Below are positions 34,173 through 62,112 of a stretch of 64,000 nt of DNA, in pieces (positions within the stretch are counted from its first letter, which is position 1; each line of letters opens with the position of its first letter). The stretch is taken from the NCBI RefSeq assembly GCF_003391335.1, contig NZ_CP028374.1, forward strand, positions 377,335 through 441,334. The letters are read 5' to 3'. Under the pieces are notes generated by a model. That model ran no database searches and was not told the DNA's origin. It saw only the letters and a program-made list of their open reading frames with translations. Made by a program: the position numbers and the translations under genes. This DNA comes from Candidatus Purcelliella pentastirinorum. GTDB taxonomy: Bacteria; Pseudomonadota; Gammaproteobacteria; Enterobacterales; Enterobacteriaceae.

Positions 34173-35292
34173 ATGATTTTATTAAATATTCTATCTATTT
34201 TTAGAACTGAAATTGAGTATGTTAATTTTGTCATATTTGATATTAAATCTAATAAAAACAATAAATTTATACAATTATGTGAAAATTGATTTTAAAGTAA
34301 ATTTAATTTTAAGAAAATTTTTCTAACAACTTCATGTACTTCTTTTTTAGAAATGTTAGATTTGTTAATTAATGTTTAACCTGAGATGAAATTATAATGT
34401 TTAGTCATATAATTTGTTTTCACAGCTAATATATTTATATTGAGAGGAGCTGTAGTTGTATTTGTTGATATTCGTCCAGATACATTAAATAATAAATAAA
34501 AATCTTATTGAAAAAGTAATTATCTCAAAAACCAAAGCAATAGTTGCAATTCATTATGCTGGAGTTAATTTTAATATGTATTTAATTATGTTTGTAGTTA
34601 TGAAATATAATTTATATGTGATAGAAAGAAGATAAGGGATAATGTTTAAATATAAAGATGTATATTTGGGTTGTATAGGTTATACTAATTGTTTTAATTT
34701 TCATAAAACCAAAAATTATACTTTTTGTGGTGAAGGTGGATTATAATAATTAATGATGATTTATTAATAAAATGATTTTATATGATATATGAAGAGGGTA
34801 TTAAACGATCAATTACTACCTTAAATAAAATAAATAATTATATGTGGTTTGATGTTTGATCACATTTGTTAAATTTATAAGTTGCATATTTATGAGTTCA
34901 ATTAAGGGTATCAAGACATATTTATAATTATCGTATGAATTTATGGAATAATTATTTTAATAATATATTTTATTTAAGTAAAAATAAAGAGGTATAATTA
35001 TCTAACATTCCAAAATATTGCAAACATAATGTATATATTTTTTATTTAAAAATGAAAAATAAGAATGAATTTTATTATTTAATAAATTGGTTAATGGTAT
35101 ATAAGATTTTTTTTTCTTTTCATTATGTTTCTTCACATACTTATTCTGTAGCTAAAATGTTTAGTTGTTTTGTAAAAATGATTTTATACTACAGTTGAAG
35201 GTAAGAGTTTAATACGTATTATAATATATTATAATTTAACTCTTGATGATCAGAATATTATCATTAAATATTTAAAAACATTTTTTAAATAG
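34173..35292 (+). pseudogene. wecE: inactivated wecE (rffA), dTDP-4-oxo-6-deoxyglucose aminotransferase
   Basis: WecE supplies the aminosugar of enterobacterial common antigen. The whole length of the gene can still be followed from the ATG at 34173 (MILLNILSIFRTEIEYV, E. coli MIPFNAPPVVGTELDYM) to the stop at 35292 (IIYYNLTLDDQN...). Conserved fragments include LTTSCTSFLEM, RGAVVVFVDIRPDTLN, IVAIHYAGVN and the PLP-lysine segment FHKTKNYTFCGEGG. Several in-frame stops and frameshifts separate them. Size is nearly intact, so the loss looks recent. Position between rho and tRNA-Arg/His is exactly that of the enteric wec cluster, of which this is the only visible trace. Confidence 0.92.
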
Positions 35293-51145: not shown

Positions 51146-52408
51146 TTAAATTTTTTCTGTTAAATTATAAATAATTTCCATATAAGTTTTAATTGTTTTT
51201 ATTATATCTTTTTTTAGTACTTTTTCTTTTGGTGAGTGACTAATTCCTTTAATACATCTAATAAATATCATTCCTATAGGCCATTTTTTTGCCATAGAAA
51301 TAGCGTCATGTCCAGCACCACTTGCAAGTGATGGACAATTACCTTGTGTTTTATTAATTGTTTTTTTTATTATATTTTTAATTTTTTTATTACATTTAAT
51401 AGATTTTGTGGAATAATATTTTTTTGAATTAAATATTATATTTCTTTTTTTAGAAATTTCTTTAGCTTTTTTTAATATATTAGATATTGTTTTATTTAAT
51501 TCATTATTTTTTGGACCTCTTATATCCAATGTTAATTTTATTTTATTAGGTATTACATTGGTTGCTCCAGGGTAACAATTTATTTTACCAATAGTTGCTA
51601 CTATTTTTGTTTTGGATTTTAGTAATTCATTCTCTATAAATAATATCCATTCTGATGTAGCTATAAGTGGATCTTTTCTCATATATATTGGTACTGTACC
51701 AGCATGACCTGATTCGCCGGTAAATGTGCAATTAATTCTTTTAGCTCCATTTATTGCACTTACTACTCCCATACTTGAATTATTTTTATATAGATATGGA
51801 CCTTGTTCTATATGTAATTCAATATATGCTTTTATATCTTTGGTGTTTCTTTTTGCTAAACATATTTTATTTGTATTTAATCCTATATTTTTCATTGCAT
51901 GTGCAATTGTAATTTTATTTTTATCTTTATAATTTAACCATTTTTTTTTCCACTTATTTGTTAATGCTTTACTTCCTAATAATGTTATACCAAAGCGTGT
52001 TCCTTCTTCATCTGCAAAACCAACGATTTCTATTGCTTTTTTTAAGTGTATTTTATTTTTATTTAAATGGTTTACAACTTCTATTGAGGTTAATACTCCT
52101 AGAATTCCATCATATTTACCTGCATTAGGTACTGTATCTAAATGTGAACCTAATAGAATTGCTGGTTGTTTTTTTGTACATGCTTCATATCTGCCGTATA
52201 TATTACCTACTTGATCTTGCCATGTTTGCATTCCGGCTAATTTCATCCATTTTTCCACAATTTTATTTGTTTTGATATGTTCTATTGATAAATAAAGACG
52301 TGTAGTATTGTTTTTATTTTCGCTTATTTTTGATAATTTTTCTATTCTATTTAATATACGTGTAGCATATTTTATTGATTCATTATTATTTATTTTAGGA
52401 TAGTACAT
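51146..52408 (-). CDS. hpxK: allantoate amidohydrolase (AllC/HpxK type)
   Basis: This M20-family binuclear metal enzyme hydrolyses allantoate to ureidoglycine, ammonia and CO2. The 420-residue protein shows metal ligands in GSHLDTVPNAGKYDG (His89, Asp91 and Asp100), Glu pair FADEEGTRFG, HIEQGPYLY and the C-terminal ASGAGHDA. The dimerisation segment has GESGHAGTVPIYMRKDP. N-carbamoyl amino acid hydrolases are close relatives, but the linkage to hpxJ, hpxXY and puuE argues for allantoate. The hpxJ-hpxK order and orientation match the Klebsiella hpx cluster; the gap to hpxJ is 24 nt. Confidence 0.88.
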   Translation of the reverse strand: MYYPKINNNESIKYATRILNRIEKLSKISENKNNTTRLYLSIEHIKTNKIVEKWMKLAGMQTWQDQVGNIYGRYEACTKKQPAILLGSHLDTVPNAGKYDGILGVLTSIEVVNHLNKNKIHLKKAIEIVGFADEEGTRFGITLLGSKALTNKWKKKWLNYKDKNKITIAHAMKNIGLNTNKICLAKRNTKDIKAYIELHIEQGPYLYKNNSSMGVVSAINGAKRINCTFTGESGHAGTVPIYMRKDPLIATSEWILFIENELLKSKTKIVATIGKINCYPGATNVIPNKIKLTLDIRGPKNNELNKTISNILKKAKEISKKRNIIFNSKKYYSTKSIKCNKKIKNIIKKTINKTQGNCPSLASGAGHDAISMAKKWPIGMIFIRCIKGISHSPKEKVLKKDIIKTIKTYMEIIYNLTEKI

Positions 52409-52432
52409 ATTAACAATATCCTTAATTTATTA

Positions 52433-53647
52433 TTATACATTTATGTTATAAAAATCCCATGTTGCTTGTAATGCTTCACCTTGAGTAGTTTTAAATCCTA
52501 GTTTATTAAGTATTGATTCTAATGCTGTTAATGTTCTTAATACGCAATCTTTACGAGAATTATAACCCATAGTACCAATTCTCCAAATTCTTCCTTTTAA
52601 AGGGCCAAAGGATGTTCCTATTTCTATACCAAAATCATCTAACATAAGTTTTCTTACTTGTTCTCCATTTATTCTTTTGGGTATTATTACTCCTAATATA
52701 TTATTCATTTTATGTTTTATATCCCCGAAAATTTTTAATCCCATATTTTTTATTCCATGTAATAGAGCATCTCCATGTAATTTATGACGTAATATTCTAT
52801 TATGTATACCTTCTTTAATGATTAATCTTGCACATTCGTGTGCTGCATACAATGCTGTTGTTGCTTCTGTATGATGATTTAGACGCTTTTCACTCCAATA
52901 ATCTATTATCATATTTATATCGAAATAATTTGAAAAAATAATTTTTTTGTCATCTATATTTTTCCCAAATTCTACACGTTGTCTTTGTTGTATAATTTCT
53001 ATTGTTTTATCATTAATTGTTATAGGAGATGTTCCGGATGGTCCTCCTAAGCATTTTTGCATACCAGCTGAAACTGCATCTATTTTCCAATCATCTGTTT
53101 TTAAATAATTTCCACCACATGAAGCTGTGGCATCTGTATAAAATATTACTTCATATTTTTGACAGATTAATCCTATTTCTTCTAATGGTTGTAACATTGT
53201 AGTTGAAGTATCTCCATGTACTGTAAGTAGAAATTTGGGTTTTATTTTTTTAATTGAATATTCTATTTTATCTGGTTCAAATATTTCACCCCATGGTACT
53301 TCTATTGTATGGACATGAGCTTTACATCGTTTTGATATTTCATATAATAATTGTCCGAATCTACCGAATATTGGTATTAATACTTTGTCCCCAGGTTTAA
53401 TCATAGATATAAATATTGCTTCAATTCCTGCTCTTGATGTTCCATCTATTAATAGAGTATTTAAATTTTTTGTATTAAAAATTATACGATATAATTGCAT
53501 TACTTCATTCATATAATTAGTCATCATTGGATCATATTGCCCAATTAATTTATTTGACATGGTATGTAATATTCTTGGATCTATATTAATAGGTCCAGGA
53601 CCCATTAAAAGTCTTTCAGGTGGAGTTATTTGATCAAATTCATTCAT
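52433..53647 (-). CDS. hpxJ: (S)-ureidoglycine aminotransferase (HpxJ/PucG family)
   Basis: A class V PLP aminotransferase that, in this family, moves the amino group of ureidoglycine to a 2-oxo acid such as glyoxylate or pyruvate, giving oxalurate and an amino acid. The 404-residue protein has the N-terminal LMGPGPINIDPRIL, DGTSRAGIEAIF, VHGDTSTTMLQPLEEIG, TDATASCGGN and the Schiff-base lysine (Lys198) in SAGMQKCLGGPSGTSP. Serine-pyruvate or alanine-glyoxylate aminotransferase activity cannot be excluded from sequence alone. The immediate neighbours are all ureide genes. It is divergent from hpxXY. Confidence 0.88.
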   Translation of the reverse strand: MNEFDQITPPERLLMGPGPINIDPRILHTMSNKLIGQYDPMMTNYMNEVMQLYRIIFNTKNLNTLLIDGTSRAGIEAIFISMIKPGDKVLIPIFGRFGQLLYEISKRCKAHVHTIEVPWGEIFEPDKIEYSIKKIKPKFLLTVHGDTSTTMLQPLEEIGLICQKYEVIFYTDATASCGGNYLKTDDWKIDAVSAGMQKCLGGPSGTSPITINDKTIEIIQQRQRVEFGKNIDDKKIIFSNYFDINMIIDYWSEKRLNHHTEATTALYAAHECARLIIKEGIHNRILRHKLHGDALLHGIKNMGLKIFGDIKHKMNNILGVIIPKRINGEQVRKLMLDDFGIEIGTSFGPLKGRIWRIGTMGYNSRKDCVLRTLTALESILNKLGFKTTQGEALQATWDFYNINV

Positions 53648-53961
53648 GTATTATTTCCTTATAATTTATTTTTTAGCTTTATTTAAAAAAAAAAGTTATT
53701 TTAATTCTATTCTTTATTTTCTTATTTTTATTTGTTTTGTATTAATTAAATTATTATATATAATTATATTTTTTTATATAGAATTTCCGTTTTTGATATA
53801 TATGTTTTTATTTTAAAATCATTATTTCACAATTGTTTATTTTATATAATAAAATAATTTTATTAAATATTTTTTTGATATGTATAATATAATTTATTTG
53901 TTTTAATTTTATTTATTTAAAATTACTAATTTTTTATTTTTATATTTTTATAGGTCTATAA
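53648..53961. promoter_or_regulatory. divergent hpxJK / hpxXY promoter region
   Basis: This 314-nt A/T-rich spacer must carry promoters for both arms of the ureide cluster. A TATAAT hexamer at 53883-53888, directly after TTGATATG, is a candidate -10 for hpxXY about 70 nt upstream of its start. No operator dyad or regulator gene (such as hpxS or hpxU) is visible, so regulation may have been lost. Confidence 0.35.
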
Positions 53962-54144
53962 ATGAAAACGTTTAATTGTGAAGATTATGTTAAAAATTTT
54001 ATTAAAGTCTTTAGTATATCTGTAGATGAAAAAAGATATGAAGATTTATTATTAAATTTTGTTTATATATTTAATATAACAAAGCCATTAATTTTATATT
54101 CTTTATCTAGTGATATTGAAATAGCAGGAGTATATAATGCATGA
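53962..54144 (+). CDS. hpxX: AtzG/HpxX-like small amidase subunit (DUF4089)
   Basis: A 60-residue protein beginning MKTFNCEDYVKNFIKVFSI. Position, size and helical composition fit the DUF4089/AtzG family, small GatC-like partners of AtzE-type amidases. It ends in ATGA, overlapping the hpxY start by 4 nt, which implies coupled translation and a complex. Klebsiella hpxX has the same relation to hpxY. The sequence itself is too short and diverged for more than family-level assignment. Confidence 0.75.
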   Translation: MKTFNCEDYVKNFIKVFSISVDEKRYEDLLLNFVYIFNITKPLILYSLSSDIEIAGVYNA

Positions 54145-55547
54145 TTGAAGATATTCGTTTTTTAACAATTTCAGAAATAAATAAATGTTTAATTAAAGGT
54201 GATTTAAGCGCCATGGAAATAGCTGAATCTACTTTGCATGCAATAAAGAAGTATAATCCTATTATTAATGCTTGGACTGAAATTACTTCTAATCGTATGT
54301 TTAAAGAAGCTAATTTAATTGATAAATATTTGATATCTGGTAAAAAATTGTCAAAATTAGTTGGTATTCCTTATGCTGTAAAAAATTTGTTTGATGTGCG
54401 CGGTTATGTTACTTTAGTCGGTTCTATTTTATTTGCAAATAACCCAGTAGCAAAATGTGATGCTTATTTAATTGACAGATTAAGTAGTAATGGAGCATTG
54501 CTAAGTGGTATGTTAAATATGGATGCTTATGCTTATGGTTTTACTACGGAAAATAGTTATTATGGTACTACTAGAAATCCTTATGATTTAAATCGTATTG
54601 CTGGTGGTTCATCAGGTGGATCTGCAGCTGCTGTAGCTGCTGGTTTAGTACATTTTTCTTTAGGATCAGATACTAATGGATCTGTACGTGTTCCATCTTC
54701 GCTTTGTGGTGTTTTAAGTTTAAAACCAACTTTTGGTAGATTATCTCGTACTGGTATGTATCCTTTTTCTTATAGTTTAGATCATGCCGGGTATTTTGCT
54801 AGGAATATTGGTGATTTAGTTGATGTATATAATGTTTTACAAGGTATTGATGAAAAAGATTTATCTCAATCTACTAAATCAAAAGATAAAATATTTTTAG
54901 ATTATAATAATTCTATTAATAGTATACGTTTTTGTTTACTATCTGGTTATTTTTATACTTGGTGTAATGATGAAGTACGTAATATTATAGATATTGTTTC
55001 TAAGGCTTTAGGTGTTAAAGATGATATAGATTTATCGGATGTAGAATTAGCTAGATCTTCTGCTTTTATTATTACGGCTGCTGAAGGTGGTAATTTATAT
55101 TGGTCTAGATTATTAGATACTCCAGAATTATTTGAACCTTTTTCTAGAGAAAGATTATTGGCCGGGTCTATTATACCTGCTAATTGGTATATTAAAGCTC
55201 AACGTTTTAGAACATATTTTAGACATAAAGTTAATGATATTTTTAATAATTTTGATGTTTTAATAGCTCCAGCTACCCCTTGTTCTGCTACTATGATTGG
55301 TCAAAAATTTATTCGTATTAATAATACTGATTTATTGATAAAATCTAACATGGGTATGTTAACTCAACCTATATCTTTTATTGGATTACCTGTTATAACT
55401 GTACCAATTAGGGTAGGTGATAATTTACCTATTGGTATTCAATTAATTGCAGCTCCTTTTAAGGAAGATTTATGTTTTAAAGCTGCTTTATTATTAGAAA
55501 AAAAAGGTTTAATTATGAAACATGACAATTTAATTAATTTAAATTAA
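54141..55547 (+). CDS. hpxY: AtzE-family amidase (HpxY), probable oxalurate or related ureide amidohydrolase
   Basis: An amidase-signature hydrolase of 468 residues. The catalytic Ser-cisSer-Lys set is visible: Lys81 (GIPYAVKNLFDVRG), the cis-serine in AGGSSGGSAAAVAAG (157-158) and nucleophile Ser181 in SDTNGSVRVPSSLCG. The DTNGS form is as I recall it for AtzE rather than GatA. No gatB lies nearby. In Klebsiella, hpxXY accompany urate degradation, and by analogy with carboxybiuret hydrolase the likely substrate is oxalurate. That substrate is inference. The stop overlaps the convergent puuE end by 4 nt. Confidence 0.83.
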   Translation: MIEDIRFLTISEINKCLIKGDLSAMEIAESTLHAIKKYNPIINAWTEITSNRMFKEANLIDKYLISGKKLSKLVGIPYAVKNLFDVRGYVTLVGSILFANNPVAKCDAYLIDRLSSNGALLSGMLNMDAYAYGFTTENSYYGTTRNPYDLNRIAGGSSGGSAAAVAAGLVHFSLGSDTNGSVRVPSSLCGVLSLKPTFGRLSRTGMYPFSYSLDHAGYFARNIGDLVDVYNVLQGIDEKDLSQSTKSKDKIFLDYNNSINSIRFCLLSGYFYTWCNDEVRNIIDIVSKALGVKDDIDLSDVELARSSAFIITAAEGGNLYWSRLLDTPELFEPFSRERLLAGSIIPANWYIKAQRFRTYFRHKVNDIFNNFDVLIAPATPCSATMIGQKFIRINNTDLLIKSNMGMLTQPISFIGLPVITVPIRVGDNLPIGIQLIAAPFKEDLCFKAALLLEKKGLIMKHDNLINLN

Positions 55548-56479
55548 TTAAATTCAATTTTGTGATATTTAATCCAATGATTAGCAATTTCTTGTCTTGT
55601 ACATATCCATATATCTTTGTAGTTTTTTATATAATCTAAAAAATTTATTAATGCCTTAAATCTTCCAGGCTTACCTATTATTCTGCAATGCATTCCTATT
55701 GACATCATTTTTGGTTTTGTTTTTCCTTCTTTATATAATATATCAAAAGTATCTCTTAAATATTGATAAAATTGTTTAGATGTATTAAATCCTGGTTGTA
55801 CTACAAATTTCATATCATTTGTTTCTAATGAATATGGTATAATCAAATGTTTCTTTTTTTTACCATTTTTTAAATAAATATCCATCCAAAAAGGTAAATC
55901 GTCTCCATAATAATCGCTATCGTAAATTATGTTACTATATTTTATTATTAATTTTCTAGTATTTGGACTATCTCTACCAGTGTACCAGCCCTGGGGATAT
56001 TTACCAAATATTTTTTTAAATATTTTAATTGATTTAATAATATCTTTTTTTTCTTTTTTATAGTCTATTTTTTGATATTCAATCCATTTTAGTCCGTGAC
56101 ATACTACATCATATTTTTCTTTTATTATTGTTTTTGTTATTTCTGGATTTCTAATAAAAGCCATTACTACTCCAAATATAGTTAATGGTATTTTTCTATT
56201 TTTAAATTCATTATGAATTCTCCAAAAACCTACTCTAGATCCGTATTCATATAAAGATTCTATAGACATATGACGATTTTTATAATTTTTACAATTTATT
56301 AAATCAGAAAGAAATGTTTCAGATGAATTATCACCATGTAATATGTTTTTTTCCGCTCCTTCTTCATAGTTTAATACAAATTGTATTGCTATTTTTGCAT
56401 TGTTTGGCCATGATACCGTCGGGGGGTTATTTCCGTAGCCTAATAAATTTCTAGGATATTTTTTATTTTTAATTTTCAT
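55544..56479 (-). CDS. puuE: allantoinase PuuE (polysaccharide-deacetylase fold)
   Basis: PuuE opens the allantoin ring to allantoate; it is unrelated to metal-dependent AllB. The 311-residue protein matches the family closely from the N-terminus (YPRNLLGYGNNPPTVSWPNN) through VLNYEEGAEKNILHGDN, SIESLYEYGSRVGFWRI, VCHGLKWIEYQ, GWYTGRDSPNTR, YDSDYYGDDLPFW and SIGMHCRIIGKPGRF. Klebsiella HpxB is of the same type. It supplies the substrate of the allantoate amidohydrolase 3 kb away. Confidence 0.92.
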   Translation of the reverse strand: MKIKNKKYPRNLLGYGNNPPTVSWPNNAKIAIQFVLNYEEGAEKNILHGDNSSETFLSDLINCKNYKNRHMSIESLYEYGSRVGFWRIHNEFKNRKIPLTIFGVVMAFIRNPEITKTIIKEKYDVVCHGLKWIEYQKIDYKKEKKDIIKSIKIFKKIFGKYPQGWYTGRDSPNTRKLIIKYSNIIYDSDYYGDDLPFWMDIYLKNGKKKKHLIIPYSLETNDMKFVVQPGFNTSKQFYQYLRDTFDILYKEGKTKPKMMSIGMHCRIIGKPGRFKALINFLDYIKNYKDIWICTRQEIANHWIKYHKIEFN

Positions 56480-56888
56480 TTTATTTTATTTATTTTAGGA
56501 ATATTTTAATTATTAAATTAATTTTAAATAGTTTTAATGATATTAATATTTCTATTATTTTAATAGTTGGACTAATATCTTCTATAATTCATATATTCAA
56601 TTTTTTTGTTAAATAATTAGATAATAATGGTAACGTTATACTATATTTTAATGTTATAAAATTAAAATTGTTATTTTTTTATTAAATAATATTTATTTAT
56701 AATTTTTTTTAATATATTTACAATATATATAGTTTTATTTTAATAGTTTTTTATTAAAAAATATTATTTATGTATTTTGTTGTAATTATTTTTTAAATTT
56801 ATGATTACATTATTTATAAGTAATATATTGTATATTACTTATTTTTAATAGAATAAAATATTTTAAGTTATATTTTTTATTTTATTTG
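56480..56888. other. intergenic, upstream of puuE
   Basis: This is 409 nt of A/T-rich sequence between the puuE start and the 3' end of tRNA-Asp. No ORF, RNA gene or pseudogene fragment was recognised. It must include the puuE promoter. Confidence 0.6.
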
Positions 56889-56962
56889 CGGTGCGGACGG
56901 GACTTGAACCCGTGACCCCCGGCGTGACAGGCCGATGTTCTGACCAACTGAACTACCGCACC
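56889..56962 (-). tRNA. aspV: tRNA-Asp (GTC anticodon)
   Basis: Acceptor GGTGCGG/CCGCACC, anticodon loop CTGTCAC with anticodon GTC (56926-56928 on the plus strand) and discriminator G at 56889. No CCA is encoded (CAA follows). It lies directly downstream of dnaQ, as aspV does in E. coli. Confidence 0.97.
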
Positions 56963-56982
56963 GATTATATTATTATTTTTAA

Positions 56983-57666
56983 TTATTTTATTAACAAATT
57001 TTTATTTAATATATTCTTATATTCTTTATTTAATTCTAATTCTTCTTTATTTGCAAATATTATTTTTAATTTTTTATTATTTATTTTTATATTTTTAATA
57101 TTTTGTTTTTTTATTTTTTTATTTTTAAACAATTTTTTTTGATTACTTGTTAAATATAAATATATATCTGCTAATATTTTAGCATCTTTTAAAGCTCCGT
57201 GTTTTTTTCTTTTTCTTATGTCTATTCCATAGTATTTACATAGTGAATTTAAACTATTATTTTTCCCTGGAAATATTTTTCTTGCTATTGTTAAATTATC
57301 TACTATTTTACAATAATCTGAAATTTTATCTTTTCTTTTTAATAAAAATAATTCATAATTTATGAATTCTATATCAAATTTAGCATTATGTATTATTATT
57401 TTAGATCCATATATATATTTAATAAATTTATTTAATATTTCTTTAAATGTTGGTTTATATTTTAAGAATTCATTTGATATTCCATGTATATTAAATGATT
57501 CTTCACTTATAGATCGATTTGGGTTTAAATATACATGAAAGTTATTATTAGTTAATGTTCTGTTTATCATTTCTACTGCACCTATTTCTATGATTTTATG
57601 CCCGCTGTAATGTTTTCCGATTTGGTTTATTCCTGTTGTTTCAGTATCAAGTATAATTTTTCTCAT
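56983..57666 (-). CDS. dnaQ: DNA polymerase III epsilon subunit (3'-5' exonuclease)
   Basis: DnaQ proofreads replication. The 227-residue protein (E. coli 243) has the DEDDh residues: Asp and Glu in ILDTETTGIN, Asp in IHNAKFDIEF, and His/Asp in KKHGALKDAKILADIY. The C-terminal polymerase-binding tail is Lys/Asn-rich and diverged. DNA proofreading is thus apparently kept even though aminoacyl-tRNA proofreading is eroded. Divergent from rnhA, as in E. coli. Confidence 0.96.
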   Translation of the reverse strand: MRKIILDTETTGINQIGKHYSGHKIIEIGAVEMINRTLTNNNFHVYLNPNRSISEESFNIHGISNEFLKYKPTFKEILNKFIKYIYGSKIIIHNAKFDIEFINYELFLLKRKDKISDYCKIVDNLTIARKIFPGKNNSLNSLCKYYGIDIRKRKKHGALKDAKILADIYLYLTSNQKKLFKNKKIKKQNIKNIKINNKKLKIIFANKEELELNKEYKNILNKNLLIK

Positions 57667-57724
57667 ATTATTTTTTCAATTTTGTTTTTTATTTATTCTA
57701 TCAAAAATTAAGGGATTTATTAAT

Positions 57725-58180
57725 ATGTTAAAAAAAAATATAGTATTTATTGATGGATCTTGTCTAGGTAATCCTGGTCCTGGTGGGTATGGAGTGTTTA
57801 TAAAAAATAGTGTGAAGAAAATTTATTTTAGTGCTGGATTTTTTCTTACCACAAATAATCGTATGGAAATTATGGCGGCAATTATTGCACTTGAACATTT
57901 TATTAATAAATCAAATATTATTATTTATACTGATAGTACATATCTACGTAGTGGTATTACTGAATGGATTTTGAGTTGGAAAAAACGTAATTGGAGAACT
58001 TGTAATAATAGTGTTGTTAAAAATGTAGATTTATGGATTAGATTAGAAAAAGCAATTAATTGTCATATTATTGATTGGAAATGGATAAAGAGTCATACTG
58101 GTAATATGGGAAATGAATTATGTGATAGATTAGCTCGTAATGCTGCTAAAAATCCATTTTTAGATGATATTATTTATTAA
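57725..58180 (+). CDS. rnhA: ribonuclease HI
   Basis: RNase HI removes RNA from RNA-DNA hybrids. The 151-residue protein (E. coli 155) has the four acidic active-site residues: Asp in FIDGSCLGNPGPGGYG, Glu in NRMEIMAAI, Asp in IYTDSTYLRSGI and Asp in GNELCDRLAR. The handle region with WKKRNWRTCNN is present. Confidence 0.97.
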   Translation: MLKKNIVFIDGSCLGNPGPGGYGVFIKNSVKKIYFSAGFFLTTNNRMEIMAAIIALEHFINKSNIIIYTDSTYLRSGITEWILSWKKRNWRTCNNSVVKNVDLWIRLEKAINCHIIDWKWIKSHTGNMGNELCDRLARNAAKNPFLDDIIY

Positions 58181-61185: not shown

Positions 61186-62112
61186 ATGAATAAAATTATT
61201 TTTGATACAGATATTGGAATTGATGATGCTTTTGCTTTATTATTAGCTTATAAAACTCAAAATATTTTAGGTATTACTACAGTTTTTGGTAACACTAATA
61301 TAAATCAGGTTACTAATAATGCTGTCTTATTTTCTAAAAAATTTGATATAGATGTACCTATTTATAAAGGTTGTTCAAATTCACTTGTATATAATAATTC
61401 ATTTGATGATTCTATTAATATTCATGGTAATAATGGTTTAGGTGATATATTTAATGATTATGTCAATTATGTTGCTTATGATGCTTTAGAATTTATTATT
61501 GATAGTATAAATGATAATCCTCATGAAATAATTTTAGTTGCTTTAGGTCCTTTGACTAATATTGCTACAGTTATTAAAAAATGTCCTGAATTGGTATCTA
61601 AGATTAAGTTTTTGATTATAATGGGGGGAGCTTTTGGTACTGATGGTTGTTTTGGTAATATAACATGTAATAGTGAATTTAATGTATGGTCTGATCCTCA
61701 TGCAGCTCAATTAATTTTTTTATCAAAATTACCTATTGTAGTTGTACCTTTAGATGTTACACATAAAATTGTTATAACAGAAGATGATTTATTATCTTTA
61801 AATAATAATTTTTTAATCGATTTATCTCGTTGTTATATGTCGTTTTATAGAAATAAAAAATTTTTTGATGGAATGGTATTGCATGATCCTATAGTAATTT
61901 CTTATTTAATTGAAGATAAATGGTTTGATGTTAAAGATGTATATGTAGAAGTTTTGACTGATAGTTTGTATAGAGGTAGTACTCTTATGTATGATAAGAA
62001 ATATGATTTTCATAATATATTACATCATAATGATAGTTTATTAAGAAAAGTTTGTTTAAATTTAGATGTTGTAAATGTTAAATCTAATTTATTAAGTATA
62101 TTAAAAATATAA
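61186..62112 (+). CDS. inosine-uridine type ribonucleoside hydrolase
   Basis: A nucleoside hydrolase that splits ribonucleosides into base and ribose. The 308-residue protein has the Ca-binding aspartate cluster FDTDIGIDDAFAL (usual DTDPGIDD), the ligand segment LVALGPLTNIATVI, IIMGGAF, NSEFNVWSDPHAA and the group I catalytic histidine in VLHDPIVIS (His233-Asp234). I cannot say which of RihA, RihB or RihC it corresponds to. It could release purine bases feeding urate formation, a tempting link to the ureide genes 5 kb away, but that link is inference. Confidence 0.88.
   Translation: MNKIIFDTDIGIDDAFALLLAYKTQNILGITTVFGNTNINQVTNNAVLFSKKFDIDVPIYKGCSNSLVYNNSFDDSINIHGNNGLGDIFNDYVNYVAYDALEFIIDSINDNPHEIILVALGPLTNIATVIKKCPELVSKIKFLIIMGGAFGTDGCFGNITCNSEFNVWSDPHAAQLIFLSKLPIVVVPLDVTHKIVITEDDLLSLNNNFLIDLSRCYMSFYRNKKFFDGMVLHDPIVISYLIEDKWFDVKDVYVEVLTDSLYRGSTLMYDKKYDFHNILHHNDSLLRKVCLNLDVVNVKSNLLSILKI

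Follow-up and report, generated by a model that had tools for sequence, protein, structure and literature searches.

The hpx pathway of Klebsiella pneumoniae and of large-genome members of its family (throughout, a genome is called large or free-living from its size alone) degrades allantoin in a series of linked reactions. The allantoinase PuuE converts allantoin to allantoate, from which HpxK forms ureidoglycine with release of NH3 and CO2. HpxJ then transfers nitrogen from ureidoglycine to a 2-oxo acid, giving oxalurate and an amino acid, and HpxXY acts on oxalurate to give NH3 and, after decarboxylation, oxamate. Here we describe a cluster of genes for these five proteins, hpxK, hpxJ, hpxX, hpxY and puuE, in the arrangement of the large-genome pathway, within a 64,000-nucleotide stretch (the window) of contig NZ_CP028374.1, positions 377,335 to 441,334. 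The genome consists of this one contig of 479,855 bp (completeness 99.3%; window GC content 21.1%). Unlike the large genomes, it has no detected 2-oxo-4-hydroxy-4-carboxy-5-ureidoimidazoline (OHCU) decarboxylase, NCS1 permease, HpxW, HpxZ, glutamine synthetase or PF00208 dehydrogenase, and its HpxA is reduced to a remnant. We propose, with a probability of roughly 0.78, that the cluster represents the lower half of an hpx pathway of Klebsiella type, inherited in place next to dnaQ-rnhA and held under selection in an obligate insect symbiont, most likely 'Ca. Purcelliella', which would be supplied with allantoin and would pass its nitrogen to an amino acid and to ammonia.

Eroded symbionts that recycle nitrogen are usually described as doing so through urease and the subsequent assimilation of ammonia. 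Blattabacterium and Blochmannia are eroded symbionts that use the nitrogen waste of their hosts by means of urease together with glutamate dehydrogenase or glutamine synthetase (PMC8781418). The bacterium described here would likewise draw on host waste, but through ureide breakdown and transamination, neither assimilation enzyme having been found. In the planthopper Nilaparvata lugens, nitrogen recycling is shared between the host and a yeast-like symbiont, as we propose for the present system; there, however, almost every uricolytic gene belongs to the fungus (PMC4269174), whereas the bacterium would hold only the part of the pathway below allantoin.

All five frames are open without an internal stop at the positions given by an earlier reading of the window made from its letters (the sequence-only reading), whose gene identities and claim of intact frames are upheld (Table 1). 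The best solved relative of HpxJ is the ureidoglycine-glyoxylate aminotransferase 3nnk (E 4.2e-194), and no NCBIfam model is matched by HpxJ above its cut-off. PuuE exceeds the NCBIfam cut-off of the allantoinase model TIGR03212 (451.9 versus 424.6 bits) and is related to the PuuE allantoinase structure 3cl6 (E 5.9e-106). HpxK, whose solved relatives include 1z2l (AllC) and 3n5f, lies above the cut-offs of NF006775 (486.8 versus 479) and NF006771 (435.3 versus 399) and under that of NF006773 (560.5 versus 584), so that one allantoate amidohydrolase equivalog is satisfied and another narrowly missed. HpxY exceeds the cut-offs of both AtzE models, TIGR02715 and NF006631, and has 6c62 as a solved relative (E 4.9e-126). 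In alignments from which Alteromonas and genome G046 were left out, K198 of HpxJ, which we take to be the lysine that binds pyridoxal phosphate (PLP), is unchanged in 24 of 24 copies. The same holds for H89, D100, E134, E135, H199 and H391 of HpxK, presumably its metal-site positions (24 of 24), and for K81, S157 and S181 of HpxY, assumed here to be catalytic (22 of 22). These matches support the membership of PuuE, HpxK, HpxJ and HpxY in ureide families, in agreement with the sequence-only reading, which would have been contradicted by a placement of the enzymes elsewhere. The weakest assignment is that of HpxX, which has no Pfam match and no PDB relative at E <= 1. It is made because of the position of the gene, its 4-base overlap with hpxY, and the open copy, 85% identical, in a same-genus comparison genome that carries the same cluster (G001; contig of 483,447 bp).

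Table 1. Features of the ureide cluster and its flank (coordinates are those of the window)
Feature	Coordinates	Strand	Assignment or remark
hpxK	51146..52408	-	predicted allantoate amidohydrolase, M20 family
hpxJ	52433..53647	-	ureidoglycine aminotransferase, class V, PLP
intergenic, no hpxW trace	53648..53961	.	no trace in the comparison genome G001 either; hpxW occupies the same place in other reduced genomes
hpxX	53962..54144	+	small non-catalytic partner, AtzG/GatC-like, 60 amino acids; called mainly from position and partner
hpxY	54141..55547	+	AtzE-family amidase, presumed oxalurate amidohydrolase
puuE	55544..56479	-	allantoinase
hpxA remnant (allantoin racemase)	56526..56633	-	about 100 bp, between puuE and tRNA-Asp
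flank: tRNA-Asp, dnaQ, rnhA	56888..58180	.	dnaQ-rnhA adjoins the cluster in 10/10 reduced genomes examined

The strength of selection on the cluster was estimated from the pair formed by the window's genome and the comparison genome as omega, the ratio of nonsynonymous to synonymous substitution (dN/dS), by the NG86 method with a codon bootstrap (95% intervals). NG86 values were used because, with two genomes so rich in AT, YN00 either returned a very high synonymous rate (dS) or failed. Omega is 0.074 for HpxJ (0.041-0.126), 0.122 for PuuE (0.071-0.198), 0.135 for HpxK (0.085-0.206) and 0.254 for HpxY (0.172-0.369). These values fall inside the range of five flanking genes, which extends from 0.042 (NhaP) to 0.286 (RluC); a sixth neighbour, Rne, gave 0.158 in a separate run. 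The four long cluster genes are thus under purifying selection, as the sequence-only reading had suggested, and the value near 1 that it named as contrary evidence is not approached, although the comparison was made with a same-genus symbiont instead of the free-living relatives that it had in mind.

The adjoining allantoin racemase gene, a dead gene nearer to the cluster than the two named by the sequence-only reading and overlooked there, provides a measure of decay. In the comparison genome hpxA is intact, encodes 225 amino acids and lies between puuE and tRNA-Asp; its product matches the Pfam Asp/Glu/hydantoin racemase family and has 3qvj and the allantoin racemase 5lfd as solved relatives. 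In the window's genome the remnant is 79% identical to this copy over 33 amino acids and 53% identical over 32 amino acids to that of a second reduced genome, G014. Since hpxA has shrunk to about 100 bp beside five open frames, decay acts on this timescale and has spared the five genes. The earlier statement that wecE and pdxJ nearby are dead holds in that both genes are broken here and intact in the comparison genome, but pdxJ lies about 50 kb and the gene named wecE about 16 kb from the cluster, so that "nearby" was generous. A search for the pdxJ family gave no match in the window's genome and an intact protein of 239 amino acids in the comparison genome; a 17-residue trace of pdxJ remains at 1607-1557, between the frames 960-1340 and 1661-2554. 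The gene named wecE survives as four pieces at 34173-35286 and corresponds to an intact frame of 377 amino acids in the comparison genome (L036:14172-15305).

The extent of the loss was followed by genome-wide family searches, in which control genomes gave matches for the HpxW, glutamine synthetase and PF00208 families, found absent from the window's genome and the comparison genome. The sequence-only reading had proposed to look for uricase, OHCU decarboxylase, allantoin racemase, hpxW and ammonium-assimilation genes, and apart from the hpxA remnant none of these was found in the window's genome, the last group having been searched as glutamine synthetase and PF00208 glutamate dehydrogenase. 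OHCU decarboxylase (PF09349) is missing from 10 of 10 reduced genomes, these two included (a reduced genome being one of the same family of at most 1.2 Mb), and present in both large genomes searched. HpxW (PF01019) has no match in either genome and was found in the four other genomes searched; within the cluster stretch no credible remnant of hpxW or hpxZ was detected. Glutamine synthetase (PF00120) and glutamate dehydrogenase (PF00208) are without a match in both genomes, whereas all 14 controls match each family, 14 and 12 of them, respectively, over the cut-off; PF00208 is also missing from one large genome, G021. The NCS1 permease (PF02133) occurs in one of the ten reduced genomes (G014) and in both large ones, and in neither of the pair. 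Uricase (PF01014) had no match in any of 14 genomes searched, the window's genome and four large relatives among them. Because all four large relatives also lack it, this absence is uninformative about a cut; we therefore dropped uricase loss as a sign of a cut at allantoin and used OHCU decarboxylase instead. From these losses the retained module should begin at allantoin and end at oxalurate or oxamate. As a separate observation, a locus of genome G119 (L075) partially matches the intact permease of G014, with 30.5% identity over 236 amino acids; PF02133 is unmatched across the whole of G119, and the locus is perhaps a decayed allantoin permease.

The same module is present in other reduced genomes. 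An HpxJ match (E <= 1e-60) was obtained in 155 of 392 genomes of the family, at least one of which (G271, E 6.8e-62) is too weak for a clear ortholog; 217 non-matching genomes of this draw were not itemised. Ten of the genomes with a match do not exceed 1.2 Mb in size: that of the window (G000), G001, G014, G082, G119, G145, G148, G247, G318 and G377. The five core genes are clustered and adjoined by dnaQ-rnhA in 10 of 10, a co-retention that is conditional on the selection of these genomes by their possession of HpxJ; HpxX was matched in all ten, and its frame checked and found open in seven. The other hpx genes are kept unevenly: hpxW in 8/10, hpxA in 8/10 and hpxZ in 2/10. The eight genomes other than the Purcelliella-like pair discussed below (0.7-1.2 Mb; G119 of 1,150,626 bp, G148 of 708,439 bp, and G082 with a main contig of 745,590 bp) resemble the window's genome in having the five genes in the same order beside dnaQ-rnhA and no OHCU decarboxylase, but differ from it in keeping hpxW (8/8) and hpxA (7/8). 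Between hpxJ and hpxX, hpxW is found in G014, G082, G119, G148 and G318; the HpxW of G014 has the solved relative 5hft which, like 3nnk and 3qvj, we take to be a Klebsiella structure. G014 further differs from the window's genome by the presence of glutamine synthetase, a PF00208 dehydrogenase and NCS1. In the cluster of G148 (L077), hpxA and hpxZ were lost and hpxW kept, another path of erosion of the same cluster.

Whether such catabolism is rare in eroded genomes, as had been stated, depends on the sample. In a 60-genome draw that included the window's own, an HpxJ ortholog was found in only 2 of 11 further reduced genomes of the family (G001 and G014), so retention of the module is not general among reduced genomes; the 392-genome draw, on the other hand, yields the ten holders listed above. 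An HpxJ search of genome contigs returned four named loci, none from a reduced symbiont, with records of the window's own genome possibly excluded. In a tree of the four long proteins from the 19 genomes that have all four, the ten reduced genomes lie on one side of a branch. This tree leaves out Alteromonas and G046, its long branches meet (G148 with G000 and G001) and letter composition differs among its members; as it stands, it gives no support to an independent origin of the reduced lineages. Horizontal gain is likewise unsupported: gene order and the dnaQ-rnhA flank are those of the other reduced genomes, and in two large genomes, G253 and G025, the cluster likewise has dnaQ close by.

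How the module would work is predicted from its gene content. Allantoin would come from outside, from urate oxidation by the host or from plant sap, which we regard as equal possibilities. PuuE would open it to allantoate and HpxK would yield ureidoglycine, NH3 and CO2; HpxJ would place the amino group on a 2-oxo acid, turning pyruvate into alanine or glyoxylate into glycine, and leave oxalurate. HpxXY would release NH3 from oxalurate, and once CO2 is lost as well, oxamate would result. Because HpxW is gone, oxamate would remain as waste. Of the four nitrogens, one would thus reach an amino acid via HpxJ, two would become ammonia and one would stay in oxamate. The earlier proposal that waste nitrogen is recovered without passing through free ammonia may therefore hold for one nitrogen of four, HpxK and HpxXY both being expected to release ammonia. 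With no glutamine synthetase and no PF00208 dehydrogenase found, the usual ammonia fixation would be closed to the symbiont, and the ammonia would return to the host cell. HpxJ would then be the one visible way for this cell to turn waste into amino nitrogen. It may also be one of few transaminases, since the only class I/II aminotransferase (PF00155) match in the window's genome is a cross-match at the retained glyA locus; the comparison genome has one strong match besides glyA.

The reaction of AtzEG is described in PMC6219798. For HpxY, the running text of PMC12625717 uses the name oxalurate amidohydrolase, and a figure legend of the same paper the name oxamate carbamoyltransferase. AtzE is insoluble without AtzG (PMC6219798); if HpxX, like AtzG, keeps its partner soluble, hpxX would be needed, which would explain the retention of a gene of 60 codons. 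The loss of hpxA, for its part, would be compatible with the delivery of (S)-allantoin produced by an enzyme.

Several lines of evidence bear on the identity of the bacterium and its host. Purcelliella is described as exclusive to Cixiidae and resides in bacteriocytes enclosed by Vidania tissue (PMC10073718). The Purcelliella of Pentastiridius leporinus has a genome of 481,066 bp with 21.7% GC and 99.25% completeness (PMC12505427), values matched by those of the window's genome. It lacks pyridoxine genes and has only the final step of the biotin pathway; the Purcelliella of Oliarus polyphemus keeps both sets of genes (PMC12505427; PMC12691624). The window's genome, lacking pdxJ and any class I/II aminotransferase match other than that at glyA, and the comparison genome, possessing both, fit these two types. 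We regard the former as very probably 'Ca. Purcelliella' and infer that the latter is also a Purcelliella. Allantoin synthesis may be within reach of a planthopper host, because N. lugens encodes both uricase and OHCU decarboxylase (PMC4269174).

The sequence-only reading had instead guessed a heteropteran gut symbiont, which here would be one that recycles uric acid. The same cluster occurs at the same locus in G082, which we take as Ishikawaella, the symbiont of a plataspid bug, and by that identification one or more gut symbionts of stinkbugs also carry the module. For the window's genome, however, size, completeness, GC content and the absence of both pdxJ and class I/II aminotransferases agree with the published Purcelliella, and neither OHCU decarboxylase nor uricase was found; the guess is probably wrong, and we regard a heteropteran origin as quite unlikely. 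A different function for the cluster was also considered, either detoxification or carbon-skeleton balance, or an HpxJ that is mainly of alanine-glyoxylate type and feeds glycine to GlyA and on to serine and cysteine, with nitrogen recovery secondary. Its solved relatives do relate HpxJ to alanine-glyoxylate aminotransferases, GlyA is kept, class I/II aminotransferases are missing, and published Purcelliella is credited with cysteine supply (PMC12505427). HpxJ alone would suffice for this role, however, which leaves the retention of PuuE, HpxK and HpxXY unexplained, and the source of its glyoxylate would be hypothetical; such a function appears unlikely.

Other observations weigh against an allantoin-fed nitrogen pathway under selection. 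HpxX reaches only 38.9 bits against the NF033624 cut-off of 70 (NCBIfam), and its omega of 0.43 (0.19-1.42), from 60 codons, is too short a measure to decide. No allantoin transporter was found in the window's genome, where the NCS1 family was the one searched. HpxW loss strands one nitrogen in oxamate, and HpxJ needs PLP, which, with pdxJ dead, must be imported. Uricase is called rare in insects, other Hemiptera included (PMC4269174), which leaves a host supply of allantoin in cixiids hypothetical. The stinkbug symbiont Benitsuchiphilus is reported to have the opposite split, with urate oxidase present and no allantoinase (PMC7218078). The reactions, the source and uptake of allantoin and the benefit to the host are predictions from gene content. 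Finally, the copies in the window's genome and the comparison genome retain 79-91% of the positions that are invariant in large-genome copies, and among the other eight reduced symbionts only G148 is regularly as low.

This loss of 9-21% of otherwise invariant positions, together with the loss of hpxW, hpxZ, hpxA and the permease in parts of the genome set, could mean that the five genes are undecayed leftovers of a free-living ancestor with no present use. That idea is already hard to hold against omega values of 0.07-0.25, with upper limits below 0.37, for four genes, the decay of hpxA next door while its five neighbours stayed open, and the presence of the five genes together in every reduced HpxJ holder examined. 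On the low omegas and the decayed hpxA we rejected it, and consider it very unlikely. A retained and selected lower hpx pathway remains our preferred interpretation.

Ureide degradation in Purcelliella appears in no title or shown abstract among the matches listed, which do not cover two earlier Oliarus symbiont genome papers. Allantoin, uric acid, nitrogen, ureides and recycling go unmentioned in the main text of both PMC12505427 and PMC12691624, and the first three of these in PMC10333215. Neither the enzymes nor the pathway is new; what sets this case apart is a minimal module without OHCU decarboxylase, HpxW, glutamine synthetase and PF00208 in a probable bacteriome symbiont. Ten reduced genomes retain these five genes and differ in which other parts of the cluster they have lost. 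The papers cited here credit the symbiont with cysteine and B vitamins, to which a nitrogen role would be added, and the proposal makes the testable prediction that allantoin is the metabolite exchanged between insect and bacterium. More tentatively, and with somewhat less than even confidence, we suggest that hemipteran symbionts share a hand-over point, the urate arm being lost or left to the insect and the steps from allantoin onward being carried out by the symbiont; in the smallest genomes HpxJ would then be the symbiont's only route from waste nitrogen to amino acid, a route that might also feed Vidania and Karelsulcia, co-symbionts of the same host.

A further retained gene of nucleoside breakdown lies 5 kb from the cluster. 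This nucleoside hydrolase (61186-62112) is intact, matches PF01156, has RihC as its best NCBIfam model (210.5 versus a cut-off of 382 bits), and is 95% identical in the comparison genome.

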